A stretch of DNA of 54,537 nucleotides, from positions 1 to 54,537 of IMG/VR virus record IMGVR_UViG_3300034022_000096; one strand, 5' to 3'. Shown here in pieces: positions 3,345 through 45,961 of this stretch. The translations under genes and the position numbers were made by a program. The notes below the pieces were generated by a model. That model saw nothing but the letters and a program-made list of their open reading frames with translations, made no database searches and had not been told where the DNA came from. Source of the stretch: a virus. Numbering within the stretch: the stretch's first letter is position 1; each line of letters opens with the position of its first letter.

Positions 3345-4201
3345 GTGGCGCACTACAGGCTGTATTCCAAAACCAAAGGTCGTTTGGCCCAGCGTTTATG
3401 GATGTGTCCACAACGGGCAGTCCTACCATTACAACTGATGGTGACTTTCAAGTAGTTAAATTTACTGGCTCTGGTGAATTTATTGTTAATTCGCTAGGTG
3501 GTGACCCAACGTATGGTGCGGCTGTTGATGTTTTAGCTGTTGCTGGCGGTGCTGGTGGTGGTAGAGAAATTGGAGGTGGTGGTGGTGCTGGTGGGTTGAT
3601 TTATACAACGGGACAGGCTGTAACGGCAACAACTTACACAATTACTGTCGGAGGCGGCGGTGCTGCTGTGACCACTTCACAAAGAGGAAATAATGGTGAT
3701 ATTTCTATTGGAATTACTGGAACTACATTAGTCGGCGGTGGTGGTGGTGGAAATTATTCAATAGCCACCGCTGGAAAAACTGGTGGTTCTGGAGGCGGTG
3801 GGGGTGGTTCTGGCGGTAGTGGTGGCACAGGCACTTCTGGGCAAGGAAGAAATGGTGGCACAGGCACATATGACCCTAAACAAGGAAAGTATGCAGCAGC
3901 CGGTGGTGGCGGTGCTGGTGCAGTAGGGGGAAGTGCATCATCAATAACATCAGCAGGAAGTGGTGGCTCTGGTTCAAGTGTTTCAATTACTGGTTCCTCA
4001 GTAACTTATGCTGGTGGTGGTGGGGGTTGTACTGTTGGTACTCAAGGTTCTGGCGGTAGTGGTGGCGGGGGTTCTGGTGGTGTGGCATCAGCCACTTCTG
4101 GAACAGCAAACACAGGTGGTGGTGGGGGTGGTATTTACAACAATAGCACTGGCTCTGCTGGCGGGTCTGGTGTCGTAATCGTTCGTTATAAGTTTCAATA
4201 A
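3341..4201 (+). CDS. second glycine-rich tail tip adhesin
   Basis: A 286-residue protein. Its N-terminus (residues 1-60) contains FQVVKFTGSGEFIVNSLGG, typical of the strand-rich domain that precedes a glycine-rich region. The rest is dominated by Gly runs with Ser, Thr and Ala loops and ends in a strand (SGVVIVRYKFQ) that often closes this domain. It shares architecture but little exact sequence with the adhesin at 480. It is coupled to the upstream fibre gene by ATGA and to the downstream gene by a TAATG overlap. A host-range role is inferred. Confidence 0.68.
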   Translation: MSGALQAVFQNQRSFGPAFMDVSTTGSPTITTDGDFQVVKFTGSGEFIVNSLGGDPTYGAAVDVLAVAGGAGGGREIGGGGGAGGLIYTTGQAVTATTYTITVGGGGAAVTTSQRGNNGDISIGITGTTLVGGGGGGNYSIATAGKTGGSGGGGGGSGGSGGTGTSGQGRNGGTGTYDPKQGKYAAAGGGGAGAVGGSASSITSAGSGGSGSSVSITGSSVTYAGGGGGCTVGTQGSGGSGGGGSGGVASATSGTANTGGGGGGIYNNSTGSAGGSGVVIVRYKFQ

Positions 4202-15295: not shown

Positions 15296-18200
15296 ATGGC
15301 ACAGTCAGTTCAACTTCCAGACGGTTCATGGTTCCCACTTAAAGAAGGTGAAGACCCCCGGGAGGCAATGGCTGTAGCGTCTAAACTATACCCCGAAGCG
15401 TTTGGGCGTAAAAAAGGTGAAGACAAACCCAAGGAAGACACCAAGGGTTTCAAAGCTGCCGCCGCCGCAGGCTTTGAGCGTTTAAAAGGTGAAACCGCAC
15501 TGACTGCGGCCAAGCTCGGGCTAAAAGACATAGGCGAAGCTGAAGCATATCAAAAGGAAAAACAAGCGTCGGCGGCCAGACGTTTCACGCCCACTGAAGA
15601 CAGCTTCATAGAATCCCCTCTTCAAAACGTTAAAGAGCTTCTGGGCGGATCTGTTCCTTACATGTTGGCCCCCGCCGCCGCGGGTCTTGCGGCTTTGGCC
15701 GCTCCAGTATCAGCACCAGTTGCGGCTGGTTTAGGTTTGTTGGGTGCTGGCGCTGTGTCTACGGGGCAGTTCACAGGTTCCAACCTTGCGCGTCAAATGG
15801 ACACCGGCAAGTCTTTAGAAGAGGCCAGCCTTGGCAAAGCTGTAGCCGCAGCCGTTCCGCAAGCTCTAATTGACACCGCTGCCATGGCGTTGTTACCCGG
15901 TGTGGGCAAGCTGTTCGGCTCTGTGGGCTCTAAGCTTACAACGGAACAAGCCAAGGCTATTGCTTCCCAAACACTGACCCGCACTATTGCAGACTACACC
16001 GCCAAGACGGGCGTAGCGATGAGCCGAGAAGGTGTAACAGAAGCCACTCAACAATTGCTTGAGCGTTTGCAAGCAGGTTTAGAAATTACAAACCCAGAGG
16101 CTCGCAAAGAGTACATCGACAGTTTTATTGGCGGCGCTGTGTTAGCCGGAACCTTAGCCCCTGCGGGTCGTGCGTTAGAGCGTGGGGGAGCCAAGCGGCA
16201 AGCAACAGCCGCCGACCGAGCCGAAGCTTTGCAACTTAGTTCTGAACAGTTACAGCAACAAAAAGCCCAAGAAGAAGCTGCGGCACAAGCACTGGAAACA
16301 GAAAGACAGTCACCTGAATATGCAATAAAGCTAGGCGCAGAGTACGAAGCAATACTTAAAGATTTTCAAACTAAACAAAAAGTACTCAAAGACCCCGGCA
16401 AGAATGCCACGCCCGAAGAAAAAGCGGTATATGCCGAACGTAAAGCCGAAGTCTCAGGACTGAACAAACAGTTAGAAGAACTGACGCCTGAGTACCGCCG
16501 CACTAAACCTATACGCGAGCAGGAGGCAGAAAAACAACGTGTGGCTGGAATATCTCCAGAAGACTACATGCTGGAGCAAATGGGACAACCAGACCAAGGC
16601 ATCCAAGCTTCCGGAAGAAAAACAAACAAAGGACAGCTGTTCCCGTCTGAAGCACTCGCTCCTGCACCGGTAGACACAACGCTACAAGACTACGCCACCG
16701 AACAACTGACAGCGGCACAAAATGTTGGGGCATTGACCACAAAAGACCGTCTTGACTATTTAATGCAGAACCCGGAGATGGCAAGGCAGTTGCTTGCAAA
16801 CCGTACACCGTTGCCCGGAGTAAGCGCACAAGAACAAAAGCTTATTTACAGCGCGTTAGTTGGGCAACTTAAAGCGTTTGATAAGCAAAAAACAACACAA
16901 GAAAAACTTCAAGCCGAGCAAGCTGAGCGTGTACGTGGCCAGATGGCTGGCACAACTCCCGGCGCAGACATCATGGGGGCTGCAACACAAATGCCTGCTG
17001 TGCAGACTGCGGAGCAAAAGCGTGCTGAAGACGAAGCGCGTCTGCGCGTAGTCACGCCCGAAGTAGAGGGCATACAAAAACTCGGTCAAACTCCAGAGTA
17101 CAGCCCAGCCCAAGCACTGCGGCAGTCTTACGACACAAGGAAAGCTAGCGAAAAGCAAGACGAAGACCTTGTAAACGGACTGATTGACACGCTTCCTAAG
17201 GGCGGCATGGTTACCCCCGGTCAAGTGTTTCAAGGTTTGGGTGGCGGTACGTCGCGTGAACGTAGCGATTTGTTAACTCAACTGGCTGTTGCCCGAGAGT
17301 CAAGCGGCAAATCAAAACAAGGCGGGGTTAAAGACAACGACATATCACGCGGCATTATTGAGAAGCTTCGCGCTTTAAAGCAGACCGAAACAACAGGGAC
17401 GGGCACAGAAACTGCCCCTATGCAAACGATACTGGCCGGTATTTCTGTGCCAGAAGCGCGTGCTAAAGAAGCCGCAGCAAACAAGTTTGCCGATCAGCAG
17501 AACCAGCAGTTGTTGGCATTCACGCGCATGTTGGGTAAAGTAAATCGAGGCACGCTAGTGCTGCCGGACACATTTAAACAACGCTCCGATGCCGCTAAAC
17601 AAGCGTATCTTCAACTACATCTAGACGAGATTAACGCTAGGCGTGATGCGTTTGGCTTGCCGCCTATGGCCGACTGGGAACGCGGCGAAGCCCGTGCCCG
17701 TGTTATGGAGGCACTCAACGAGTTGGGTGATCGTTGGGGCAGCGCGGCTAACGCAGGGCCTGCTGGTCAGCGTCAGTTTGGCTCACAAATACAAGCCGTT
17801 GCCGCTCTGCAAGAGCAGATGCGTAGCAACATTCAGAAAACTGTGGCAGGAGCCGCACAGCGTGCCAACTTAAATGCAACAAACGAAGTAGCTGAGAAAA
17901 CTACTGCGCCAACAGGTGCAGGCCCACGTATTGCCGCCCCCGCCGAATTAACCCTGCGCGGCGAAGCACGTACTGAGCCGTCCACAGAGGACATGATTGA
18001 AGCGCTGTTGTCTCAAACAGAAACACGCGAACGCGCAGTGCCTACGGCTGCGGTCAAACCAACTAAAAAAGTTACAGACCTCGGAGATATAAAGCAACTA
18101 CTAGAAAAAGAGCGTTCTGGCGGCAAGCTAGAGCCCATGGGCGCGGGCTCTGTTCAGTTACTTAAACAGCTTCAGGACATGTTGCCGCAGACAACAGACG

Positions 18201-21200
18201 CGGACTTTAAAGAACTAGCTCGCAAAATTGTCCGTCAGATTTACACAGGCAACGAACCCAATTTGTTTGACGTTCGCGATCTAGACGAAATGGCCAGAGG
18301 CATGGAAGCCGCAGGCCAAAGTGCAACACGCCCCGGCGTTACGCCAGAAGAACTGCAACGTACCAGCGCTCAGCCACAACTTGACTTGTTCTCTGACAAA
18401 GATACGCAGACCCAGCGTGCCACACCGCGCAATTTCCAGAAGATGTTGGACTCTGGCAACGTGCAAAGGCTTCGTCAAATTATTGCGCAGCAAAACAAAG
18501 AAGCCGATAACGAAGTGTCAGCGGTGGAGGAAACTCTTACAGATGCGCAAGCCAAGCTTGCCAAAGCAGAAAAGGTTACACAGAAAGCCCTTGGTAAAGT
18601 CATAGCCCTTGAAGAAGGCGCTGATGTTGGCAGTTCGCCATTAGCAGACCAATCGTCTGAAGCGCTTGCAACCGTTAAAGTATCGGACGAAAAATTAAAA
18701 ACACGTTCTAGAGTTGCGCCAGAGTCTTCAAAGTTTGTAGCCGAGTACGGTTTGAAACCAACAAACAAAGAAGATGACCAAATTAAACTTGCGTGGGCGG
18801 AAGCAACTCGAGACGTTGTGGCCGCGGAGTCTGCGCTACAAGCGTTGCCCTTGCGGATTGCTTTCTTAACTGAGATTCGTGACAGCGTTTCCGAGTTGTC
18901 TAAAAAAGGTAAACAGGATTTAATTGCTTTAATTGACGAAGCGTTGCGTTTTGGCAGAGACCCAAGCAACCCCGCATCAATGCGCGACAGTTTAGAGCAA
19001 AAAGAGTTTGCAGAGCTTAAACAATGGTTGGATCCGGATACCGCAAACACAGAAATTAAACGTCTTAAGACTCTATACAACTTAGCCAAGAAGTCGTTAG
19101 ATCCTGCGCGTGAGCGTTTGGATGCCGCCGTTGCCAAGTACGAAGAAGGTAGCGTTGTCCGTGCAGCATTAGAACGGGAACAGAAAAAAGCACAGGACGC
19201 GTTAGACAAAGCGCAAAGAGATGAACAAGCAGCGCGCGCGGCTGTAAAGGCAGAACAAAAACAAGAGACAACTACGGAAGAAGTTGGCACACCGAACGCA
19301 GAGTACCGAGCCACCCTACAACGCGCTCGTGAAGGTCTGAATTTGCCCGGTGTTCGCAACTTGGTTGACACCACGCAAGTAAAAAAGACCATCTTCAATA
19401 TGCGTAGCGCCATGGGCTCGCTCGACGGCCAGTTAGAAAACAAAAATTTAACTGAAGAAAAGCGGGCCGAGCTTCAAGCTAAACGCGACGACGCGGAGCG
19501 AAAACTGTCAACTGTGTATGAAGACGCACCACGCATTACGTCTGAAATCAAAGAGAACGGTCAGCTTGAACTAGAACGGGCGTTTGATGATGCCCAAGTT
19601 AAAGCCTACGACAAACAGGTTGCCAAGCGCCGTAAACGGAAGGGTGAGTCTGCACCAGTGTTGCCTTCCAGCAAGACTGGCCCCGTTGCCAAAGGTGTAC
19701 GAAACCAACGCATAACGCAGTTGGGAGAAACATCAGAAACAACCGCAACAAAAGAAGCTGCCACAGCGCTTGAGACGCTTGCAGAAGAACGAGCTAAGCT
19801 GGCTGATTTGGAGCGCCGCGAGAAGTTCATGCGCGACAACGGTAAAGCTAAGTCAGGCGGGCGTTTAACACCGACGTTCAAAGCACTGCAAGCGCAGATT
19901 ACAAATCAAAAGAACGTTGTAGCAGACGCCACCGAAGAACAGGGCAAGATTGTTGCAGAAGTCCGTGAAACAAAACAAGCGCTTGGCAAGAAGAGAATTC
20001 AGAACGTTGCGTCCGAGACTGAAGTTGGGCTGAAGGGTGAAGAAGCTAAGATTCCCAAGGCGGCTAAACCGTTGTTCTCGCGTGGGCCTACAACTGACCC
20101 TAGTACGATTAACACAGTCAACACAGAACTGAAAAAATATTTCAAAGATTTATCACGTATAAAAATTTACAATTCCGTTGACGAATTAATAAAGGCTAAC
20201 CCGCAATACAAGGGGCGTATTCCAACAGACGCTAGGGGTTTTGTAGACACCGCAGGTAACAAAGCGTTTTTAATTGCCGAGAACATTGACCAAGGACAGG
20301 CACTGGGCGTATTGCTTCACGAGGTAGGGGCGCACGTAGGGCTTAAAAACATTTTGGGTGAGAGTCAATACACCGGAATGGTCAATGCAATTAAAGGTTG
20401 GGCTAAAAAGAACGACGGTTCTGTAGAGTCTGTTGTTGCCAAAGCAGCAATAGCACGGGTAGAGGCAGCAAAAACAGATGCCAAACACAGAGACGATGAA
20501 ACTCTTGCGTACGCCATTGAAGAAGCGGTCAAAGCTGGCGTTATTCCAAACCAAACTAAAGGAGTTTTAGGCACATGGTTGAGCAGGATTGCAGACGGGT
20601 TCCGTAAACTACTAACAAAATTTGGCATGGATTTGAAATCCTTTGACGCGCAAGGATTAGTTGATATTGCGTATGGGGCAGCGCAAATGGAAATGCGTGC
20701 AATGCCTGAAGGTATGAGTCGCCGTACTTTTTTACGCGGCGCGGTTTCCGCTGTTGGGCAAATGTATCTGCCCGCAGTTAACAAAGGTTTGTCCATTAAC
20801 GCTAAAGCAAAATTGTTTGATGCAACACTGGATGCCGCCGACGCATGGTATAGCACTGTAATAGGTATGGCTAAAACACCGGCGTTACGAAACATGCTAA
20901 AAGATTATTCTTTTGACATAGATAACGAGCTATTTGCTGAAGCTCTGTACAACGTAGATTCTGACGTAGAAGGCGTGGACAGTGTGTACTCAAATATATT
21001 TATGAGAAGCTATGGTAACGGCGGCGATCCAACGGAATCTGTAATAGATTTGTTAAAAAGCAAACCTGACGCGGTTGAAAAACTACAGATGGCTGTTTTA
21101 GACATGCGTTCCCAGCTTGTTGCCGCAATAGAAAAACTACCTAAAAAAGAAAATGGAGAAATTGCAGAAGATAAGTTGCCAGCAGTTGGGGACTTATTAT

Positions 21201-23863
21201 TTTCCCGCAAAGCCGCCGCTGAACCAGACAACGCGTTGATTGCGTTGTCAAGACAGATTACTGCACAGCCTAAGACGCTCAAAGAAAAGTTAAGCAACAA
21301 CCTTGCTTTGCAAGCTGAAATGCAAGCGGTGGATATGCGTGCAGGGTTGCGCGACACCCTTAAGTTTGGTGACGACAGTCTGTTTACCCAAGCCATGTAT
21401 CACGTACGCAAGGCTGAACAGAAGATGGCGCAGATGTTTACCGTCATGAACAGCGGCCCGTTGGTTGCGTACAAAGACTCCAAAGGTTTTGTGGGTTATC
21501 GCAGTTCCAATGAGAACAGTGCTCGTGATGTGTTTGACGCAATTGCTGACGTTCCCGTAGCCGATCCGCAGTTAAAAACCAACATTACGCAGGCGTACAT
21601 GGTTGCTCAGCGCACCGCCAACAAAGGGTTACCAAAGCTAGACCTTGGCGCGTTAGGCATCACGGAAGAACAACTGACTGCTGCTCTGGCTGCGGCGGAT
21701 GCCGACCCTGCTTTAAAGCGGGCACTAGAGAATGTACGTACCAAGTACAACGCGTACAACAGAGGCATGATTGAGTTCCTTGCTAGCACCGGACGTATCA
21801 CCAAAAAGGTGGCGGCGGACTTGCTTAAAGAAGGCGACTACGTGCCTTTCTATCGTGTGGACAAGAACGGCAACGCTAGTTTGGTATTCAACAACAATGT
21901 TACGTTTAACGTGGGCGACATCCGCCGTCAGCCATACCTTGCAGAACTCAAGGGCGGCGACACAAAGTTACTGCCACTGAACGAAGCTCTTCAGCGCAAC
22001 ACGTTGTTGCTGACAGACATGGCGCTGACCAACAATGCCGCCAAGAGTGTGGCTTATGGCTTGCAAGCACTGGGCAAAGGCAAAGGCCCTGTTAATCCCA
22101 AGACAGGCAAACCTACGGACTTGATGGCCATCAAAATAGGTCTTGGCGATGCCAATGCTAAGGTCATTCGGTTCTACCAAGAACCTGACCCAAACAAACC
22201 CGACGATAAAGGCGAGCGCCACATTGAGGTGGATACTAGAGGCACTGCCGCTGAAGGCATTCCTGCCGAGCTAGTGGTGCAGAGTTTAGAAGGCGCAAGT
22301 CTTGCGCTTCCCGGGTTCTTTAAACTGGGTGGTGCTGCCGCCGATTTGCTACGCGCCGGTGTGACCCGTACGCCTTTGTATATTGCTCGTAAATTACTGC
22401 GCGAACCTATGGCTGCAGCCTTTACTGGTGGCTTAGACAGCAACGTGTTCTCCTCTGTCTTCAAGGCAGGCGCTGAGTTCGTACGTATGAGCACTGGCAA
22501 CAGTGCCATGCAAGCTAAGTTAATTGAGAAAGGGCTGATCCAGTCTAATATCTTTGCAGGCGACATGTCTGACATGAAGAAGATGGCGCTTCAGCTTGCC
22601 AGTGGTAAAGACCAAGGCGCTCTTGACAAAGTGCTGGCCGCCGCCGACCGGTACGCAATGCGTGCTGACGCCGCCACACTAGCGTTGGTGCTTAAAAACG
22701 CTGAAGCTAACGGGTTGTCAGAGGTCGAGGCTGACATGGCCACGATGGAGTCAATGAACTTCTACAAGCGCGGGTTGTCTCCCACGTTGCAGTACGCTAG
22801 CCGTTTGATCCCGTTCTTCAACGCCCAGATTCAGGGTTTGAATGTTCTGGTTAAAGCCGCACGAGGCAACATGCCTTTTGAAGAACAACAGCAAATTAAA
22901 CGCAAGTTCTTTAACAACGCCATGTTGCTGATGGGCACCGGTATTGTGTACGCCATGGCCATGGATGACGACGAGACTTTCCGTAACGCTCGCCCACGGG
23001 ACAAGTATGCCAACTTTTTCTTGCCTATTCCGGGCGTGGATGAGCCGCTCAAACTACCTATTCCGTTTGAGGCCGGTTACTTCTTCTCTCTAGCTGTGGC
23101 CGCAGTCGACGGCATGCGTGCTGAGACTGACGGTAAGGCGCAGTTCCAAGCTCTTAAAGACTTGTTCTTAGGCTCTATTCCCGGCTACTCGTCCATGGGA
23201 GTGCCTGCACTTGTCAAGCCTGCGTTTGAGGTATGGAGTGATAAGAACTTCTTGACTGGAGGCCCGATCGAGCCACGCCGCATGCAAGGGTACGACACTG
23301 AAGAGCGCTACCTTGCGACCACCACAGAGTTGGCCAAGCAGATGAGTAAGCTGTTGCCGATCCTATCCCCAATCCAGATCGAGCACCTTGTGCGCGGGTA
23401 TCTGGGCGTACTACCTCTAGTAGCGGCGGCGGGGGCCAACGGTTTGTTTGAACGCGAAGGCAAGGGGGAAAAGCCCGCAGGTCGTGCATCTGACTTGCCT
23501 TTGATTGGCACAGCGTTTCAAAAGAAATACGGCGGCGGCGATGCCGACGTGGTGTACCGCGAAGCACAAGAAGCTGTTAACGCTAATGCCACATTTAAGA
23601 AAATGCTTAGCGAAGGTCGTCGCGAGGAGGCCGTGACCTACCGTGACAAAAACAAAGTGGAGATGGCCATGGCTCCTGCCGCCGGGCAGTATCGCCAAAT
23701 TATTGGACGCATCAACACCGACATCCGCCGCGTGCAAGAGCGTGACGACTTGACGGCAGAAGAAAAAAGATTACGCCTTGATGCGCTAGAAAAAGCCAAG
23801 CAAGATCGGGCTGACGCTTTTATCAGGCAGACGCGTGCTGTGGAAGAGCGGCTAGGGGGCTAA
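15296..23863 (+). CDS. giant polyvalent virion protein with zincin-like segment
   Basis: 2,855 residues, the largest gene here. Residues 1-40 (QLPDGSWFPLKEGEDPREAM, then YPEAFG) resemble N-termini of large phage ejection proteins. Residues about 115-200 are Ala/Gly-rich and hydrophobic. About 300-1590 is mostly charged helix and coiled coil. Residues 1597-1971 are flanked by LFSR (1593-1596 and 1968/9-1971) and contain HEVGAH at 1675-1680, a zincin-like metal motif (HExxxH spacing), and a twin-arginine-like SRRTFLRGA at 1808-1816. Residues about 2300-2750 contain the phrase RLIPFFNAQIQGL and hydrophobic segments resembling large-polyvalent-protein domains. The C-terminus is helical and charged. 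Inferred: ejected protein, possibly carrying a protease into the host envelope. Confidence 0.65.
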   Translation: MAQSVQLPDGSWFPLKEGEDPREAMAVASKLYPEAFGRKKGEDKPKEDTKGFKAAAAAGFERLKGETALTAAKLGLKDIGEAEAYQKEKQASAARRFTPTEDSFIESPLQNVKELLGGSVPYMLAPAAAGLAALAAPVSAPVAAGLGLLGAGAVSTGQFTGSNLARQMDTGKSLEEASLGKAVAAAVPQALIDTAAMALLPGVGKLFGSVGSKLTTEQAKAIASQTLTRTIADYTAKTGVAMSREGVTEATQQLLERLQAGLEITNPEARKEYIDSFIGGAVLAGTLAPAGRALERGGAKRQATAADRAEALQLSSEQLQQQKAQEEAAAQALETERQSPEYAIKLGAEYEAILKDFQTKQKVLKDPGKNATPEEKAVYAERKAEVSGLNKQLEELTPEYRRTKPIREQEAEKQRVAGISPEDYMLEQMGQPDQGIQASGRKTNKGQLFPSEALAPAPVDTTLQDYATEQLTAAQNVGALTTKDRLDYLMQNPEMARQLLANRTPLPGVSAQEQKLIYSALVGQLKAFDKQKTTQEKLQAEQAERVRGQMAGTTPGADIMGAATQMPAVQTAEQKRAEDEARLRVVTPEVEGIQKLGQTPEYSPAQALRQSYDTRKASEKQDEDLVNGLIDTLPKGGMVTPGQVFQGLGGGTSRERSDLLTQLAVARESSGKSKQGGVKDNDISRGIIEKLRALKQTETTGTGTETAPMQTILAGISVPEARAKEAAANKFADQQNQQLLAFTRMLGKVNRGTLVLPDTFKQRSDAAKQAYLQLHLDEINARRDAFGLPPMADWERGEARARVMEALNELGDRWGSAANAGPAGQRQFGSQIQAVAALQEQMRSNIQKTVAGAAQRANLNATNEVAEKTTAPTGAGPRIAAPAELTLRGEARTEPSTEDMIEALLSQTETRERAVPTAAVKPTKKVTDLGDIKQLLEKERSGGKLEPMGAGSVQLLKQLQDMLPQTTDADFKELARKIVRQIYTGNEPNLFDVRDLDEMARGMEAAGQSATRPGVTPEELQRTSAQPQLDLFSDKDTQTQRATPRNFQKMLDSGNVQRLRQIIAQQNKEADNEVSAVEETLTDAQAKLAKAEKVTQKALGKVIALEEGADVGSSPLADQSSEALATVKVSDEKLKTRSRVAPESSKFVAEYGLKPTNKEDDQIKLAWAEATRDVVAAESALQALPLRIAFLTEIRDSVSELSKKGKQDLIALIDEALRFGRDPSNPASMRDSLEQKEFAELKQWLDPDTANTEIKRLKTLYNLAKKSLDPARERLDAAVAKYEEGSVVRAALEREQKKAQDALDKAQRDEQAARAAVKAEQKQETTTEEVGTPNAEYRATLQRAREGLNLPGVRNLVDTTQVKKTIFNMRSAMGSLDGQLENKNLTEEKRAELQAKRDDAERKLSTVYEDAPRITSEIKENGQLELERAFDDAQVKAYDKQVAKRRKRKGESAPVLPSSKTGPVAKGVRNQRITQLGETSETTATKEAATALETLAEERAKLADLERREKFMRDNGKAKSGGRLTPTFKALQAQITNQKNVVADATEEQGKIVAEVRETKQALGKKRIQNVASETEVGLKGEEAKIPKAAKPLFSRGPTTDPSTINTVNTELKKYFKDLSRIKIYNSVDELIKANPQYKGRIPTDARGFVDTAGNKAFLIAENIDQGQALGVLLHEVGAHVGLKNILGESQYTGMVNAIKGWAKKNDGSVESVVAKAAIARVEAAKTDAKHRDDETLAYAIEEAVKAGVIPNQTKGVLGTWLSRIADGFRKLLTKFGMDLKSFDAQGLVDIAYGAAQMEMRAMPEGMSRRTFLRGAVSAVGQMYLPAVNKGLSINAKAKLFDATLDAADAWYSTVIGMAKTPALRNMLKDYSFDIDNELFAEALYNVDSDVEGVDSVYSNIFMRSYGNGGDPTESVIDLLKSKPDAVEKLQMAVLDMRSQLVAAIEKLPKKENGEIAEDKLPAVGDLLFSRKAAAEPDNALIALSRQITAQPKTLKEKLSNNLALQAEMQAVDMRAGLRDTLKFGDDSLFTQAMYHVRKAEQKMAQMFTVMNSGPLVAYKDSKGFVGYRSSNENSARDVFDAIADVPVADPQLKTNITQAYMVAQRTANKGLPKLDLGALGITEEQLTAALAAADADPALKRALENVRTKYNAYNRGMIEFLASTGRITKKVAADLLKEGDYVPFYRVDKNGNASLVFNNNVTFNVGDIRRQPYLAELKGGDTKLLPLNEALQRNTLLLTDMALTNNAAKSVAYGLQALGKGKGPVNPKTGKPTDLMAIKIGLGDANAKVIRFYQEPDPNKPDDKGERHIEVDTRGTAAEGIPAELVVQSLEGASLALPGFFKLGGAAADLLRAGVTRTPLYIARKLLREPMAAAFTGGLDSNVFSSVFKAGAEFVRMSTGNSAMQAKLIEKGLIQSNIFAGDMSDMKKMALQLASGKDQGALDKVLAAADRYAMRADAATLALVLKNAEANGLSEVEADMATMESMNFYKRGLSPTLQYASRLIPFFNAQIQGLNVLVKAARGNMPFEEQQQIKRKFFNNAMLLMGTGIVYAMAMDDDETFRNARPRDKYANFFLPIPGVDEPLKLPIPFEAGYFFSLAVAAVDGMRAETDGKAQFQALKDLFLGSIPGYSSMGVPALVKPAFEVWSDKNFLTGGPIEPRRMQGYDTEERYLATTTELAKQMSKLLPILSPIQIEHLVRGYLGVLPLVAAAGANGLFEREGKGEKPAGRASDLPLIGTAFQKKYGGGDADVVYREAQEAVNANATFKKMLSEGRREEAVTYRDKNKVEMAMAPAAGQYRQIIGRINTDIRRVQERDDLTAEEKRLRLDALEKAKQDRADAFIRQTRAVEERLGG

Positions 23864-40763: not shown

Positions 40764-40799
40764 ATTATAGCATAGGTTGTCAAAGACTTGACAACCTAT
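40764..40799 (-). promoter_or_regulatory. promoter with perfect palindromic operator for the AAA+/VWA operon
   Basis: On the minus strand a perfect extended -10 (TGC then TATAAT, with TATAAT at 40764-40769) lies 28 bases before the VWA start. The -35 region falls inside a perfect 12-bp inverted repeat with a 4-base centre (ATAGGTTGTCAA at 40772-40783, TTGACAACCTAT at 40788-40799). The -35 match is poor (TTGTCA at 19 or TGTCAA at 18 bases), so the promoter may rely on its extended -10 and be blocked by a protein on the palindrome. There is no T-run as in a terminator. The upstream gene ends 18 bases away. Confidence 0.65.
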
Positions 40800-40817: not shown

Positions 40818-41798
40818 TCAGGTGTGGATATTACTACGTGGGTATTCAGAATTTCTAGGGAATTGTTTCACCTCCTCTGGTTTCTTAAGTGAGTTACTGC
40901 CAACGTATTTCTGTATCCTGTCAAGGATGGCACGCCTGAACTCGACCATCTCAATAGGCTTCTTCAAGTCATCGATTGAACTTGTGGTCTGACTGCGAGA
41001 GTACCAGTTGCCTTGGATGTGGAAGTCCTCTTGGTCAGCACCACGCTTGGATGCGATGATGTTGTATGCACTCTGACACATCTCAAAGAACACATCGATG
41101 TCCTGTTGCCGTGGCTCGGGGTCATTCCACATCTCTTGTATCGCCATGTAGTACTCGCGGTTGTATCCCTCACCACCGAACGCTTGACCATACTTGTAGT
41201 CAAGCTTGCACTCAGCTTTGAACTCTGGCATACGCATCTGCGCAAGCATGATGTAGGGCTCGAAGTGTGCGGCAACCTTAGCCTTGAACTGGCGGACATC
41301 TTTGTCCGCGACTAGTCGGTAGTGCTTGGTGTGCTCAGACTGCGTAGGGTCTAGCAAGCCATCGACAAACACAGCGTCTAAGCTGAACGGCGTATCTCTG
41401 TCGCCGTCAACCATAAACGCCTTGGTGTAGATGGGCATGATGATTAGCTCGTCTGCGTGTGTTGTGTGGTCACGCCAGTCGACGTTCACACCAAGGTCAA
41501 CACGTAGTGTGTGACGCATGAACTGCTGACTAGTCTGCGATGAGTGACCCATGTACAGCCTACGCTCAACACGTTTGCCATCCACTACCTTGGGCTCGTA
41601 GAACCGCGCCATCACAGTCTGATACAGCTTGACGTCGAAGTACTTGCCATACTCATTACTGCCCTCGATGAGTCGGTGTTCTGAGCGTGGCTTGGGGTCA
41701 AGTGGTCGCTCGTTGGGTTGCCACGCACTACTGCGTACTGCACCTCGCATTGCAAATGTGCCTACTGCCTCGTCATAGTTTTTACATACGTATGCCAT
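40818..41798 (-). CDS. conserved protein of unknown function
   Basis: A 326-residue protein, hydrophilic, with no signal or membrane segment. It contains many Tyr and Arg, the phrase RRLYMGHSSQTSQQFMRHTLRVDLG near residues 78-102, and strand-helix alternation. No catalytic motif is evident. It is the gene directly before the AAA+/VWA promoter and could belong to the same process. A degenerate copy of the 15-bp palindrome family lies inside it at 41292-41309. Function unknown. Confidence 0.6.
   Translation of the reverse strand: MAYVCKNYDEAVGTFAMRGAVRSSAWQPNERPLDPKPRSEHRLIEGSNEYGKYFDVKLYQTVMARFYEPKVVDGKRVERRLYMGHSSQTSQQFMRHTLRVDLGVNVDWRDHTTHADELIIMPIYTKAFMVDGDRDTPFSLDAVFVDGLLDPTQSEHTKHYRLVADKDVRQFKAKVAAHFEPYIMLAQMRMPEFKAECKLDYKYGQAFGGEGYNREYYMAIQEMWNDPEPRQQDIDVFFEMCQSAYNIIASKRGADQEDFHIQGNWYSRSQTTSSIDDLKKPIEMVEFRRAILDRIQKYVGSNSLKKPEEVKQFPRNSEYPRSNIHT
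41292..41309 (-). repeat. degenerate copy of the GGACA palindrome family
   Basis: A 7-bp inverted repeat, GCGGACA and TGTCCGC, with a 4-base centre. On the minus strand the flanks are GTC before and CAGTT after, close to the GAGTT flank of the four better copies, but the centre is one base longer. It lies within a coding region, so it may be coincidental, although the extended flank match argues otherwise. Confidence 0.4.
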
Positions 41799-41803
41799 GA
41801 TAA

Positions 41804-42223
41804 TTACTCCTGTTCTAAAGTTGATGTTGATTCCCCTGTGGGGATTGTTGGAAACGATGTGTTAACTGCATGTGTTGTGGTGATGTAATCCCACAAGTCA
41901 CCATCATCGTCGTCTTCATTGCACACTTGAGCGCCGTCTTCTCCAACGCTGATAAACCTATACTTACCTCCCTTCTTTCCATAAATTAATACTGCATCTT
42001 TCATCAGTTGATGATGCGCTTGCACATCCTCGAACGAGTCGTACCACTTAACGCTCTCTTGCTTAAAGGTAATGATCGGGTCGTGCTTGTACCCATACTC
42101 ACACTCATTGATTGCTTGCGTAATCGGCGGTTCATTCTTCGCAAGCATTAGCGTTACGAAGTTGTCGCGTGTCTCGATGTCATCGAACTTAATGACATAC
42201 GCTACGTCTGATCTATATCCCAT
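41804..42223 (-). CDS. conserved phage protein of the MGYRSDVAY type
   Basis: A 139-residue protein beginning MGYRSDVAYVIKF, a start I recognise from many phage proteins of unknown role. A YDSFEDVQAHHQLM segment and a strongly acidic stretch (EDDDDGD) near residue 108 follow. It overlaps the previous gene by 11 bases. Function unknown. Confidence 0.65.
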   Translation of the reverse strand: MGYRSDVAYVIKFDDIETRDNFVTLMLAKNEPPITQAINECEYGYKHDPIITFKQESVKWYDSFEDVQAHHQLMKDAVLIYGKKGGKYRFISVGEDGAQVCNEDDDDGDLWDYITTTHAVNTSFPTIPTGESTSTLEQE

Positions 42224-42887
42224 GGTGATCTCCCTCTATTAGTGTTCCGTGGTTATCGAAGCGCCATCCATTGATGTCGCACAGGTCTATGAAGTACTCT
42301 TCACTTGTGTAAGCTTCGTACTCTTCTTTGAGTTGTTTGTATATGCCATCGGCATAAGCTCGCGCTCTGCTCAGCACCCACCCATCGAGGTCATTGAACA
42401 GATGGTCGGTATCAATAGAGTTGGCTAGCTCTTTCACATTAGCGCCCTCCAAGATACCTCTGTCCATGACTGAGTCGTCATCTGCGTAGTCGATGCGATC
42501 GTCTAAGCCCTCGGTAACCATAGTCCCGCTGTGGCTGTAGTAGAACGCATGCCTGTTGACGTTGACCTTCTCTTCGCACCACCCATCGCGTATCAACTCT
42601 CTCAGTACAACGTACTGTGCAAAGTCTTTCGCATCTGGGTCGTTGTGGTACTCAATGAAGTCAGCGAGATCAACATGCCCAGTCCATGATGCGCCATCAC
42701 CTTGCGATGAGAAGCCATTGAACTGAATCTCGTTGATTGAAAACCCCCTTGCGGGGGCATCCTCTTTAGCTCGTGCGTAGATCTCTTCGTACCAATCATC
42801 GGGCGGTTGCCCGTACTCAGAGATAGCGTTCTGCTTGGCTCGGTATGCGAGTTGTTGAAACGCAAGTGATTGCGTGGTTGTGTCCAT
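42213..42887 (-). CDS. conserved phage protein with FSSQGDGASW motif
   Basis: A 224-residue acidic protein. FSSQGDGASWTGHVD (near residues 58-72) is a phrase common in phage proteins of unknown function. The rest is helical with many Asp, Glu and Tyr. The high negative charge could mimic DNA, as in antirestriction proteins, but no such family is clearly identified. A ribosome binding site GGAGGAATC precedes the ATG. Confidence 0.6.
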   Translation of the reverse strand: MDTTTQSLAFQQLAYRAKQNAISEYGQPPDDWYEEIYARAKEDAPARGFSINEIQFNGFSSQGDGASWTGHVDLADFIEYHNDPDAKDFAQYVVLRELIRDGWCEEKVNVNRHAFYYSHSGTMVTEGLDDRIDYADDDSVMDRGILEGANVKELANSIDTDHLFNDLDGWVLSRARAYADGIYKQLKEEYEAYTSEEYFIDLCDINGWRFDNHGTLIEGDHHGI

Positions 42888-42897
42888 GATTCCTCCA

Positions 42898-43320
42898 TTA
42901 GTCTACTGATACAGAGAACGTGATGTTGTCCTTGATCTCGGTGCGAATCATCTCAGTCAAGTCAAGCTGATCTATTGCCGAGGTAACCGCATCATTGACC
43001 TTGTCATCGAAGTCGAAGTCATTGACCTCAGTATTCGCAATGTCGCGGATGTCATCTTCCGATACGTGGTACTCGCCATCGGTGTGATCGCTGACCACAC
43101 TCTCTGCAACATCTTGGGCTATCTCGCGTATCTTGTTCTCGAAGCCATCGTCGATAGTTCGCAGGGTGCTGTGGTTGAGCATGATCTCGTTGACCTGTGC
43201 TGACACAATGTCTTTGATGTAGTTCTCAACGAGCGCCATGAGCGTGGTCATCAGCGCCGAAGTAGGCATTGATGGTTGAGTGACTTCGGGTTGTGTTGTT
43301 TGAACTGTGTTTTGTTCCAT
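42898..43320 (-). CDS. acidic protein of unknown function
   Basis: A 140-residue protein from the ATG at 43320, which has GGAG upstream. The N-terminal 25 residues are Gln/Thr-rich; the rest is acidic and helical, with repeated Asp, Glu, Val and Ile. The 15-bp palindrome at 43341-43355 lies just upstream of its ribosome binding site, so it may be controlled by whatever binds there. Function unknown. Confidence 0.6.
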   Translation of the reverse strand: MEQNTVQTTQPEVTQPSMPTSALMTTLMALVENYIKDIVSAQVNEIMLNHSTLRTIDDGFENKIREIAQDVAESVVSDHTDGEYHVSEDDIRDIANTEVNDFDFDDKVNDAVTSAIDQLDLTEMIRTEIKDNITFSVSVD

Positions 43321-43340
43321 GATAAATCTCCAAAAAGTTG

Positions 43341-43355
43341 CGGACAAATTGTCCG
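43341..43355 (+). repeat. palindromic element, copy a
   Basis: CGGACAAATTGTCCG: two 7-bp arms around one central base. Read on the plus strand, it is preceded by GTTG and followed by TGAGTTA. It lies 20 bases upstream of the ATG of the gene ending at 42898, between that gene and a small membrane protein gene, so it is well placed to be an operator. Confidence 0.7.
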
Positions 43356-43407
43356 TGAGTTAAAAGCGTGGCGGGATGCCACAAAGATAGGATGACCGAT
43401 CCTTCTA

Positions 43408-43500
43408 TTACCCTCCTCTCCAATAGAACAGGTCAAGGATTAAAACAATGATGGCTAGTAAGACCACCGCCCTTTCTAGAATTTCCCATTTAGTGTGCAT
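43408..43500 (-). CDS. 30-residue single-span membrane peptide
   Basis: A short frame with GGAG seven bases before its ATG encodes a peptide with a hydrophobic helix (residues 11-25) between a polar N-terminus (MHTKWEILER) and a Trp-Arg-Gly-Gly end. It overlaps the upstream gene by 11 bases. The good ribosome binding site and membrane segment support a real gene. Role unknown; early membrane peptides often modify host functions or superinfection. Confidence 0.5.
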   Translation of the reverse strand: MHTKWEILERAVVLLAIIVLILDLFYWRGG

Positions 43501-43789
43501 TGCGTATCTCCGTTAAGTGGTACTTGTAGATGTTGTGTCCCATTAGCGTGAAGCTCTCGCCATAGGTGCGTAGTAAGTGGCTAAGACTCCCCGCTGTGAA
43601 CTCGGACGAAGCGAACCCCTTCAAGTCGTATGCGGCAAAGCACATCAGGAAGTCGAGCAGTTGGTAGTCGTCCTCTTTGATAGGCTTGATGCGTGGGGGT
43701 ACGAACTTGATGTACTTGGGTTTGAATATGAACGGGTTGTCCATACCCGCCTTCACCCATTCTTTCTTTGTTGGCTTAGTTATCACCAT
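43490..43789 (-). CDS. small protein of unknown function
   Basis: A 99-residue basic protein with Pro/Lys-rich N-terminus, then a compact helical half (DDYQLLDFLMCFAAYDLKGF) and an aromatic C-terminus. It begins 14 bases inside the 3' end of the zinc-finger gene, indicating coupling. No motif recognised. Confidence 0.58.
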   Translation of the reverse strand: MVITKPTKKEWVKAGMDNPFIFKPKYIKFVPPRIKPIKEDDYQLLDFLMCFAAYDLKGFASSEFTAGSLSHLLRTYGESFTLMGHNIYKYHLTEIRNAH

Positions 43790-44438
43790 TTTTCTCTCCT
43801 TCAGTTATGCCCATCTCTGGGCGGTACGTTATGAGCAAGGGTATCTTGCTCTCCTTGAATATCGGCGGTAGTCCCGCCCACATCTCGCGCACTATGGCGA
43901 ACACGTTGGGGTGTAGGTAGTCAGCCCACCTTGCGCTCTGTGGTCGGCGTGGGTTGGTCATGTAGCTGTATTCGGTATGTGCCTTCTCGTGTTTGAGAAT
44001 CGCGTGGTATCTAAAGTAGAACTCTGCCTTGTCGACATAGCCCTTGTCTTTGGCATATTCCCATGCCTTCCTTGCGCTTGCTATCTCGCGGGTAATGGGC
44101 GCTAGTGCTGTCCTTAATTCCACCCGCCACACTTTGAGCCACCGCTTACGGGCGGCCATTGCCTGCTTGTTGTGCTCATCTTGCGCTTGCTTTTCTCTGA
44201 GGTGTTTGGCTACAAGCACGTTCATGTCGCCTGTCTGAACCCTGTTGTGTATCTCTTTGGCGCTGAGCTTGGTCGGTGGTTTGCGCTTGGGTCGGCAAGC
44301 TTTGCAGTTCTTGGATTCGAGCGTCATGCGTACATTGCCTGCTCTGCCCCACGCTTTTGACTGTGCGTACGTTGCGAGGTACGTGAACTCGTTGAGGGGG
44401 CGCGACTCCCCACACTTAGCGCATATTTTGATTTGCAT
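43776..44438 (-). CDS. zinc-ribbon protein of unknown function
   Basis: A 220-residue protein with a four-cysteine zinc site (C6, C9 in CAKCG; C45, C48 in CKACR) and a long basic helical middle. Residues about 100-175 contain Lys/Arg/Ala helices. HNH nucleases often begin this way, but no HNH catalytic residues are seen after the zinc ribbon, so a nucleic acid-binding role is more likely. It is preceded by 415 bases of noncoding sequence with promoter potential and an 11-bp direct repeat. Confidence 0.6.
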   Translation of the reverse strand: MQIKICAKCGESRPLNEFTYLATYAQSKAWGRAGNVRMTLESKNCKACRPKRKPPTKLSAKEIHNRVQTGDMNVLVAKHLREKQAQDEHNKQAMAARKRWLKVWRVELRTALAPITREIASARKAWEYAKDKGYVDKAEFYFRYHAILKHEKAHTEYSYMTNPRRPQSARWADYLHPNVFAIVREMWAGLPPIFKESKIPLLITYRPEMGITEGEKNGDN

Positions 44439-44462
44439 ACTAATGCCTTATAGATTGGGGCT

Positions 44463-44494
44463 AACTGGCCCACTTGGTTTTGGAACTGGCCCAC
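44463..44494. repeat. 11-bp direct repeat spaced 21 bases
   Basis: AACTGGCCCAC occurs at 44463-44473 and again at 44484-44494. The 21-base period is two helical turns, so a protein could bind both on one face of the DNA. It lies 25-56 bases upstream of the zinc-ribbon gene start, where an activator or repressor could act. Confidence 0.55.
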
Positions 44495-44804
44495 CATTCG
44501 CCACGCTTACCCACTTGCGGATGACGAGGTCAAACGTAGTATACACGCGGGGTTGCGCTCGATGTGACCAAAATACCCACCATTTTTCAAGAACACTAAG
44601 GCTAACTTGAAAACATGAACGACAAGACACACCCAGCAATACACAAATATATATATCTAAATGAAAATTGTATTTATATATATAGGTATTCTGGACGTGT
44701 ACATCGCAATCGCTAGCATCCATGCGGGTTACGCGATACCCTCGTGTGTGTCCACTCGTGTCAAGTGGTGGGTATGGGCAAAAAAACAACACTTTTACCT
44801 CACT

Positions 44805-44826
44805 TCTCCACAATACGTTGTGGAGA
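44805..44826. repeat. hairpin with 9-bp stem and TACG loop
   Basis: TCTCCACAA and TTGTGGAGA form a perfect stem with a 4-base loop. Read on the minus strand it follows the stop of the gene at 44854 by about 28 bases. A T-run (seven) lies about 20 bases further, too far for a classical terminator. It may stabilise or end the transcript of the small genes upstream. Confidence 0.45.
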
Positions 44827-44834
44827 GATAGTTG

Positions 44835-44849
44835 CGGACAGATTGTCCG
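44835..44849 (+). repeat. palindromic element, copy b
   Basis: CGGACAGATTGTCCG, differing from the perfect palindrome at one arm base. Read on the plus strand it is preceded by GTTG and followed by CGAGTTA. It begins 5 bases after the stop of the small minus-strand gene at 44854. Flanks match copy a. Confidence 0.65.
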
Positions 44850-44853
44850 CGAG

Positions 44854-45060
44854 TTAGAGGAGGCGCAGTTGCTTGGACTCACGCTTGATTTGTTCCCACT
44901 CATTGATGGACTCCTTCGCCTTCTGCTCACGCAGTTGCGCTTTGTATTGCATGACTGCTCGTGGGTCTTTCTCCCACTTGTCACGCATGGCTACGAACTC
45001 TGCTCGTAGTTCTTTCATCTGAGAGAGGGCGTAGTGTTTGTTCTTAGATGACTTGCTCAT
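44854..45060 (-). CDS. small basic helical protein
   Basis: A 68-residue protein, highly charged and helical throughout, with a Lys/Ser-rich start. AAGGAA precedes the ATG. It may form a coiled coil or bind nucleic acid. It is the fourth gene of the leftward early unit. Function unknown. Confidence 0.55.
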   Translation of the reverse strand: MSKSSKNKHYALSQMKELRAEFVAMRDKWEKDPRAVMQYKAQLREQKAKESINEWEQIKRESKQLRLL

Positions 45061-45064
45061 GATG

Positions 45065-45223
45065 TTATTCCTTAGAGATAAAGATTAAGAATAGACCGCC
45101 TGTGGCGTAGCCTGCAAGCATGAGTAGTGCTTGGCGTATGAAGTTGCCGTCTGTGTCCCAGCCTACGTAGACCGAGCCGAGCAACATGGTTGTGAATACG
45201 AGGGTGCAGAATCTATCTGACAT
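45065..45223 (-). CDS. 52-residue two-span membrane protein
   Basis: From the ATG at 45223 with AAGGAA upstream. Two hydrophobic segments (about residues 6-20 and 31-49) are separated by a short polar loop (GWDTDGNFIRQ). A longer frame upstream lacks a start signal. Early small membrane proteins can protect against superinfection or alter the host membrane; this is inference. Function unknown. Confidence 0.58.
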   Translation of the reverse strand: MSDRFCTLVFTTMLLGSVYVGWDTDGNFIRQALLMLAGYATGGLFLIFISKE

Positions 45224-45233
45224 GATGTGTTCC

Positions 45234-45392
45234 TTAGCAGTTCTTGTATTCTTGAACGAGGTTTCCGCCTTGCCACATCTCAACGTGGAGATAGGTTTTG
45301 GTGAGGATGTCGAACAGTACGAGCGCATCGACTGCGTTGTCTGTGCCGTATTCACGGGTGTAGTTTTGATCTCTGAGGATGATTTTGAACAT
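45234..45392 (-). CDS. 52-residue protein of unknown function
   Basis: A short frame with AAGGAA before its ATG, starting MFKIILRDQNYTREYGT and continuing with a hydrophobic helix or strand (DALVLFDILTKTYLHVEM). It fits exactly between neighbouring genes with the same type of ribosome binding site. No motif recognised. Confidence 0.55.
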   Translation of the reverse strand: MFKIILRDQNYTREYGTDNAVDALVLFDILTKTYLHVEMWQGGNLVQEYKNC

Positions 45393-45411
45393 GATGATTC
45401 CTTAGTTGGAC

Positions 45412-45445
45412 ATTAAAAGAAACAGCGGGCAAACCTCGCCCGCTG
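45412..45445 (-). terminator. rho-independent terminator after the first early gene
   Basis: On the minus strand an 8-bp perfect stem (CAGCGGGC at 45423-45430, GCCCGCTG at 45438-45445) with a 7-base loop is followed at once by TTTCTTTT. It lies between the first early gene (ending at 45482) and the next (starting at 45392), so it would limit read-through into the rest of the early unit. Confidence 0.75.
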
Positions 45446-45464
45446 AACTGGTTGAAAAAACTCA

Positions 45465-45479
45465 CGGACAAGTTGTCCG
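45465..45479 (-). repeat. palindromic element, copy c
   Basis: A perfect palindrome apart from its central base, CGGACAAGTTGTCCG. Read on the minus strand it is preceded by GATG and followed by TGAGTTT. It starts 2 bases after the stop of the first early gene and 20 bases before the terminator stem. Opposite orientation to copies a and b. Confidence 0.7.
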
Positions 45480-45481
45480 CA

Positions 45482-45874
45482 TCAGGCTTTCAGTTGCATG
45501 GTTGTGAAACGACGCTTCTCACCGGCGCTGAGCGCTTGCCACTTCTTGAACAATGCGCTGACTGGGTCAACCTTGTTAGCAGTAGCTTTGCCAGTCTTAG
45601 GCTTGGGTGCGTCAGCCTTGGGGTAGCACACTTCCAAAACCCGATTCATTGCTCGCTCTGCGTTAGTGTCACGCTTCACGAACGTCATGCCACGTTGTCC
45701 CATCTTGATAGGTTCGTTGTTGTGGTTCTTAGAAGCCCAGTCCATAGCGAAGGGCTTTGCCTCTGCACGAGATGCGATGCCCAACTCCATTAGCCTGACG
45801 GCAAAACTCGCGGACGATTTGTCCGCATCATTGAACACAGCGTACACAGCAACACGATTGAATGACTTAGTCAT
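45482..45874 (-). CDS. first gene of the early operon, unknown function
   Basis: A 130-residue basic protein from the ATG at 45874 (GGGAG upstream). It starts MTKSFNRVAVYAVFNDADKS and has MDWASKN in the middle, a Lys/Pro/Thr-rich linker and a C-terminal helix (ALFKKWQALSAGEKRRF) that looks DNA- or protein-binding. The first gene after the early promoter is often a host take-over protein. Copy d of the palindrome lies inside its coding sequence and copy c just after its stop. Function unknown. Confidence 0.58.
   Translation of the reverse strand: MTKSFNRVAVYAVFNDADKSSASFAVRLMELGIASRAEAKPFAMDWASKNHNNEPIKMGQRGMTFVKRDTNAERAMNRVLEVCYPKADAPKPKTGKATANKVDPVSALFKKWQALSAGEKRRFTTMQLKA
45811..45825 (-). 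repeat. palindromic element, copy d
   Basis: On the minus strand CGGACAAATCGTCCG, one arm base off perfect symmetry, preceded by GATG and followed by CGAGTTT. It is inside the first early gene, encoding part of DADKSSASF, about 60 bases after the start codon. Same orientation as copy c and 346 bases from it. Confidence 0.65.
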
Positions 45875-45952: not shown

Positions 45953-45961
45953 AGTATACCA
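45953..45961 (-). promoter_or_regulatory. extended -10 promoter candidate for the early operon
   Basis: Minus strand: TGG then TATACT, with TATACT at 45953-45958. The best-placed -35 (about 45976-45981) has no clear consensus. It is the only good extended -10 before the first early gene and lies 40 bases upstream of the leader terminator. Confidence 0.4.

Follow-up and report, generated by a model that had tools for sequence, protein, structure and literature searches.

Palindromic sites in the early region of a tailed-phage-like genome switch type together with the first early gene among related phages

The early region of the IMG/VR virus record IMGVR_UViG_3300034022_000096 raises the question of what role is played by a short palindrome that recurs there four times and nowhere else in the genome. 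The record is linear and comprises 54,537 bases (this whole stretch is hereafter the window), with a gene order as in tailed phages, the terminase and portal genes lying on the plus strand and the polymerase, helicase and small early genes on the minus strand. Exact copies of the core CGGACnnnnnGTCCG are located at positions 43341 and 44835 on the plus strand and 45465 and 45811 on the minus strand (sites s1 to s4, respectively), all of them in the early region, and a scan of the whole 54.5 kb revealed no further exact core, in agreement with a first-pass annotation of this DNA that had reported four full copies there and none elsewhere. The enrichment over shuffled sequence on which that annotation had staked the element is also evident: dinucleotide shuffles of the window contain the core 0.01 times on average and once at most, an extended 23-mer yields five matches in the window (the four copies, one of them matching on both strands) against none in shuffles, and no other palindrome with arms of the same form recurs four times in the window, the maximum in shuffles being three. 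The palindromes look like docking sites of the protein encoded by the first early gene, because relatives pair a different version of this protein with a different palindrome at matching places. We therefore regard them as the probable operators through which a small DNA-binding protein, specific for their sequence, would repress its own operon in a stoperator-like manner.

Relatives with homologous early genes carry four types of palindrome, designated A (GCGGACAnnnTGTCCGC, the type of the window), B (GTGGTCAnnTGACCAC), C (GTGGAGAnnTCTCCAC) and D (GCTGACAnnnTGTCAGC). A protein search with the neighbouring 220-aa gene retrieved 20 loci, nine of which harbor the type A set and ten only another palindrome in four to five copies, either B as TGTGGTCAnnTGACCACA (L097, L099-L102) or C as TGTGGAGAnnTCTCCACA (L108-L112). 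The remaining locus, L056, combines four type C sites with one type A site (L056:4144) and encodes a type C first early protein, while type D was found in L129, a relative retrieved with the first early protein. Types B and C occur exactly four or five times, in clusters, in records of up to 46 kb, and almost all sites within one contig share one type. Three of the four window sites (s1, s2 and s3) are swapped in place with their flanks largely kept. Site s2 reads ctcctctaactcg[CGGACAATCTGTCCG]caactatctctccacaacg in type A, ctcctctaagt[GTGGTCAAATGACCAC]aatcaatctctccacaacg in type B and ctcctctaagt[GTGGAGAATTCTCCAC]aatcatctctccacaacg in L056 (type C), a different palindrome set each time between nearly identical flanks. 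Site s3 is likewise replaced where it follows the first early gene's stop codon, and s1 is replaced, with looser flanks, ahead of the same ribosome-binding site and ATG. The half-sites of one close pair of relatives, L129 (D) and L016 (A), differ by a single base pair, and the corresponding change at s4, as read from the sequence, falls on synonymous codon positions of the open reading frame (ORF) containing it (GCG to GCT, TCC to TCA).

Site type follows the first early gene against genome relatedness, which identifies its product as the candidate cognate binder. Judged by core genes, the window is close to type C genomes (DNA polymerase 93-97% in G024/G027, TerL 96% in G024), the values for the type A genome G001 being 91% and 90%, respectively. 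Its first early protein nonetheless scores 216 bits to that of the distant type A genome G029, versus 45 bits, restricted to the tail, in the close type C genomes. Within the early region the first gene is alone in scoring higher in a distant type A genome than in close type C genomes, and the genes showing the same pattern outside this region are few and either poorly conserved or much alike in every genome. Protein class coincides with site type in 20 of the 20 loci retrieved with the 220-aa gene and, in the reverse test, all seven new contigs retrieved only via the type C protein have sites of type C, type A sites being absent from them, both counts ignoring shared ancestry. The length of the palindrome centre also tracks protein class, with 3 bp in A/D and 2 bp in B/C. 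On these grounds it is very probable that a sequence-specific recognizer of the palindromes exists, and likely, though a little less so, that the first early protein is the one that reads them. This joint switching of the sites and a single early gene lends strong support to the suggestion in the first-pass annotation that the element might comprise operators of an early regulator, bound by a dimeric DNA-binding protein.

The first early proteins of types A/D and B/C have related C-terminal tails and N-terminal halves without detectable similarity. Direct homology of the A and B/C N-terminal domains was considered and rejected, as hhalign produced no alignment and sequence similarity was limited to the tail. 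The type B and C proteins are 126-127 aa long and the most distant type A/D forms reach 195-225 aa; a profile of the A/D proteins finds homologs across the type A contigs, the exceptions being L046, L055 and L057, for which only part was read. AlphaFold (AF2) models of the type A (pLDDT 76.8) and type C (pLDDT 83) proteins predict a common topology, in which an N-terminal domain formed by three consecutive helices, a beta hairpin and a further helix is followed by two tail helices.

The features of the locus are collected in Table 1, and the positions of the sites bear out the placement initially described: the copies at 45465 and 44835 each start at most 4 nt from a stop codon, the copy at 43341 lies in a 5' leader and that at 45811 is located inside the first early ORF.

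Table 1. Sites, genes and predicted promoter discussed in the text, with positions in the window.
Feature	Coordinates	Strand	Remarks
Site s1, type A palindrome	43340..43356	+	5' leader of 140-aa gene (ATG at 43320, minus strand)
Site s1b, vacant place of an optional fifth site	43802..43807		3' end of 220-aa gene
Site s2, type A palindrome	44834..44850	+	directly after stop codon of 68-aa gene (44854-45060, minus strand)
Site s3, type A palindrome	45464..45480	-	directly after stop codon of first early gene; T run next
First early gene, 130 aa (MTKSFNR...)	45482..45874	-	candidate cognate DNA-binding protein; follows site type
Site s4, type A palindrome	45810..45826	-	inside first early ORF, ~130 bp after predicted promoter
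Predicted extended -10 promoter TGGTATACT of first early gene	45953..45961	-	sequence match only
2855-aa protein	15296-23863		LPD38 domain near C-terminus; only C-terminal third aligns in compared relatives

In relatives of types A, B and C, too, s2 and s3 begin no more than 4 nt from stop codons, as does s3 in type D and s1b in type C and some type A genomes. Among the compared relatives of the window group, types A, B and C all retain the predicted promoter, and the counterpart of s4 in types B and C lies just upstream of it, centred about 50 bp upstream of the gene start. We infer that the first early protein binds the palindromes, that it does so as a dimer and that this binding blocks transcription. 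Two subunits would bind two 7-bp half-sites, and the protein would repress its own early operon through one site at its own gene (within it in A/D, just upstream of the promoter in B/C), another directly after its stop codon and the rest where the following early genes end or begin. Part of this repression would be stoperator-like, the bound protein standing in the way of elongating RNA polymerase where genes end. Sites at the protein's own gene and beside stop codons favor such a self-regulating protein with a roadblock at gene ends, and we put a transcriptional role for the sites at somewhat better than even. Over evolutionary time, the N-terminal domain and the whole set of four to five sites would change specificity together.

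A scan of IMG/VR contigs with the extended pattern identified 40 stretches, most of them with several copies in the same arrangement. The flanking bases G(T/A)TG and (T/C)GAGTT, from which the first-pass annotation had deduced that the element has a direction, do hold in the window and among its near relatives. Distant relatives carry a site close to a full 27-bp palindrome, AACTnG-CGGACA-nnn-TGTCCG-CnAGTT, which is directionless, and the one-sided flank is therefore a local feature, not a general one. A looser fifth copy had also been proposed at 41292. This palindrome (CGGACATCTTTGTCCG, 41292-41308) has a 6-base centre and lies within a 326-aa gene, and the same codons form a palindrome in type B genomes and in several of type C. 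Since they recur in genomes that use other operators, it does not belong to the set and is a chance product of coding sequence. A separate long palindrome (TAGGTTGTCAAGTCTTTGACAACCTA, 40773-40798) is located between two early genes and is present in type B and C relatives too.

Type A loci contain 195 exact cores and 11 carrying a single mismatch, and most of these 11 lack the flanks and resemble chance matches unrelated to the element. Most records of up to 65 kb carry four to seven clustered copies, and the site sets are mostly confined to about 2.5-6 kb, the exceptions being one stray copy at position 3875 of G004, outlying copies in G013 and three records with one to three copies. In L046, the 23,884-base contig with handle G013, the sites are mirror-symmetric about base 11,942 and the contig hence resembles an inverted duplication, which looks like either an assembly artefact or a real inverted end. 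The full palindrome was found in none of 84,980 prokaryote species genomes, where a looser pattern produced 34 scattered single matches across many phyla. A repeat of host genomes was therefore rejected, the looser matches being taken as chance or unrelated.

These distributions bear directly on the proposal, also raised at first reading, that the element is a small mobile palindrome spreading in the early region, similar to Rickettsia palindromic elements or REP/MITE-like repeats. One copy does lie inside an ORF, and s1b shows clean gain or loss, being filled in many relatives by an insertion of ~24 bp that keeps the frame in L037/L114. Nevertheless, the sites are syntenic across divergent genomes, different sequences occupy the same places, copies are clustered at four to seven per genome with decayed ones almost absent, and the full palindrome is unmatched among prokaryotes. 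Non-orthologous and decayed copies, as a mobile element would leave, are not the pattern found, s1b alone showing gain or loss, and we consider this origin very improbable.

Could the palindromes act instead as RNA or DNA hairpins, that is, as intrinsic terminators or as antitermination or processing signals in early transcripts? A terminator scan flags s3 and s1, a T run accompanies s3 in types A, B, C and D, and some sites fold better than shuffled sequences, namely s3 of types B, C and D (z -2.7 to -3.9) and s2 of type A (z -6.4). Moreover, at fully palindromic sites complementarity between the arms extends to the two bases outside the core in 23 of 33 cases versus 9.1 expected, among sites that are related and not fully independent. 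Arm covariation had been an early idea as a hairpin sign, and it holds only in this subset. A hairpin, however, needs pairing and not the nearly invariant sequence of the type A core, the centre in types B and C measures just 2 bases, and neither s2 nor s4 is followed by a T run or flagged by the scan. Type A s3 and s1 fold little better than shuffles (z -1.5 and -1.4), and concerted type switching requires a recognizer. A GC-rich hairpin followed by a T run, as expected of intrinsic terminators, is thus not found at every copy, and hairpin function as the general explanation is improbable, although s3 may also work as an intrinsic terminator. Types A, B and C all retain a separate hairpin (TCTCCACAACGTATTGTGGAGA, 44805-44826) adjoining s2. 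Its arms are identical to the type C half-site, and it is possibly a source of type C operators, or a coincidence.

A further alternative is that the sites serve replication, partition, packaging or DNA looping, in which case the first early protein would be their initiator or centromere binder. Phage N15, whose centromeres are dispersed inverted repeats, offers a precedent for a few such repeats spread in an early or regulatory region, and the mixed site positions, after stop codons, in a leader and inside an ORF, are as expected for a function at the DNA level. Against this, most sites adjoin stop codons, and the irregular inter-site spacing of 0.3-1.9 kb is unlike that of iterons. Searches of 18 records, which may be incomplete, found no tyrosine recombinase or integrase, no serine recombinase and no ParA-type ATPase (PF13614; 0 of 18). 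The usual partner of a partition site, a possibility listed in the first-pass annotation, is accordingly not seen and, unlike in N15, the sites follow the first early gene. We judge roles in replication, partition, packaging or looping unlikely. The same absences from these possibly incomplete records led us to reject lysogenic immunity and to favor, for the proposed repressor, shut-off or tuning of early transcription, which suggests control within the lytic cycle.

Several observations weigh against the operator interpretation. The first early protein matches no family in Pfam, PHROGs or PDB (by sequence) and no recognizable DNA-binding family, and the type A and C models gave no significant match in a fold search against PDB, so that the label "DNA-binding" derives from co-variation and not from a family. 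Beyond these searches, the type C model has no significant fold match among predicted viral proteins, and the first early proteins of four lineages match nothing in 50,697 phage records. As for isolate phages, those nearest by terminase (HTVC023P, DSL-LC04 and 023Pt_psg01) are too remote to be informative. Site s4 is placed differently in A/D and in B/C, which counts against the operator reading, and single foreign sites occur in the form of the type A site within the type C set of L056 and a type D match in the type A set of L026. The flank covariation in a subset of sites exceeds the need of a dimer indifferent to those bases, and its origin may lie in hairpin-templated repair of the palindromes, in half-site preferences or in a structural role. 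Lastly, the records searched yielded no lysogeny genes, and hence nothing else points to a repressor-dependent state.

How the sites come to change together is a question in its own right. A tree built on the 220-aa gene places C, D and, at two separate points, B among type A rows, with D sister to a type A genome at 100/100 support, and more than one type switch is therefore needed. The mosaic L056 may be an intermediate made by recombination. A joint change in the specificity of a regulator and of several separate sites is an open problem in phage immunity (PMC6550527), since one mutation cannot achieve it. The four site types in closely related genome backgrounds provide natural material for this question, as do the L056 mosaic and the close L129/L016 pair, one base pair apart per half-site, and with proteins of about 130 aa both binding and specificity are directly testable in vitro. 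More speculatively, and with considerable doubt, an undescribed DNA-binding family in lytic phages may block transcription at early gene ends through four to seven palindromes, with at least four orthogonal specificities. If true, this would allow exclusion between co-infecting phages without lysogeny, with the whole site set converted in place at each specificity switch.

The open-licence papers searched contain no account of such a set of palindromes. The promoters of the N4 virion RNA polymerase are short inverted repeats with a 3-base centre in the early region, and in these respects they resemble the present sites. The centre in types B and C has, unlike theirs, 2 bases. N4-like hairpin promoters were tentatively set aside, as the giant 2855-aa protein of the window shows no T7-type polymerase motif in a simple motif search and no PDB match by sequence, and carries an LPD38 domain. 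Lambdoid heteroimmunity (CI and Cro of lambda and 434) shares with the present locus palindromic operators, a small protein and orthogonal protein-operator pairs in related phages. It differs in that the operators here are spread over several genes, one of them inside the regulator ORF, and neither a divergent CI/Cro pair nor a helix-turn-helix (HTH) match was found.

The nearest known system is that formed by the immunity repressors of Cluster A mycobacteriophages (L5, Bxb1) and their stoperators, which the present one resembles in outline while departing from its defining features. The Cluster A repressor binds asymmetric sites as a monomer (PMC9283540), and its sites, of 13-14 bp and oriented with transcription, number 20-30 genome-wide, whereas the present sites are palindromes, clustered in sets of four to seven, whose flanks in the window group point in opposite directions at s1/s2 and s3/s4. 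Cluster A repressors are L5-homologous with HTH and stoperator domains, unlike the protein described here, which has no match in Pfam, PHROGs or PDB by sequence or fold. Here, moreover, no integrase or ParA was seen, and the regulator would be the first early gene, carrying or abutting its own sites. Both systems nonetheless comprise one small phage protein per genome and several dispersed sites, many of them in short intergenic gaps and not at promoters, as are s2 and s3 after stop codons and s1 in a leader. Stoperator sites and repressor specificities vary together between Cluster A subclusters (PMC6550527) and, by co-occurrence, the class of the phage-encoded candidate binder here likewise follows the class of its sites, related phages in both systems having different site consensus sequences that follow the protein.

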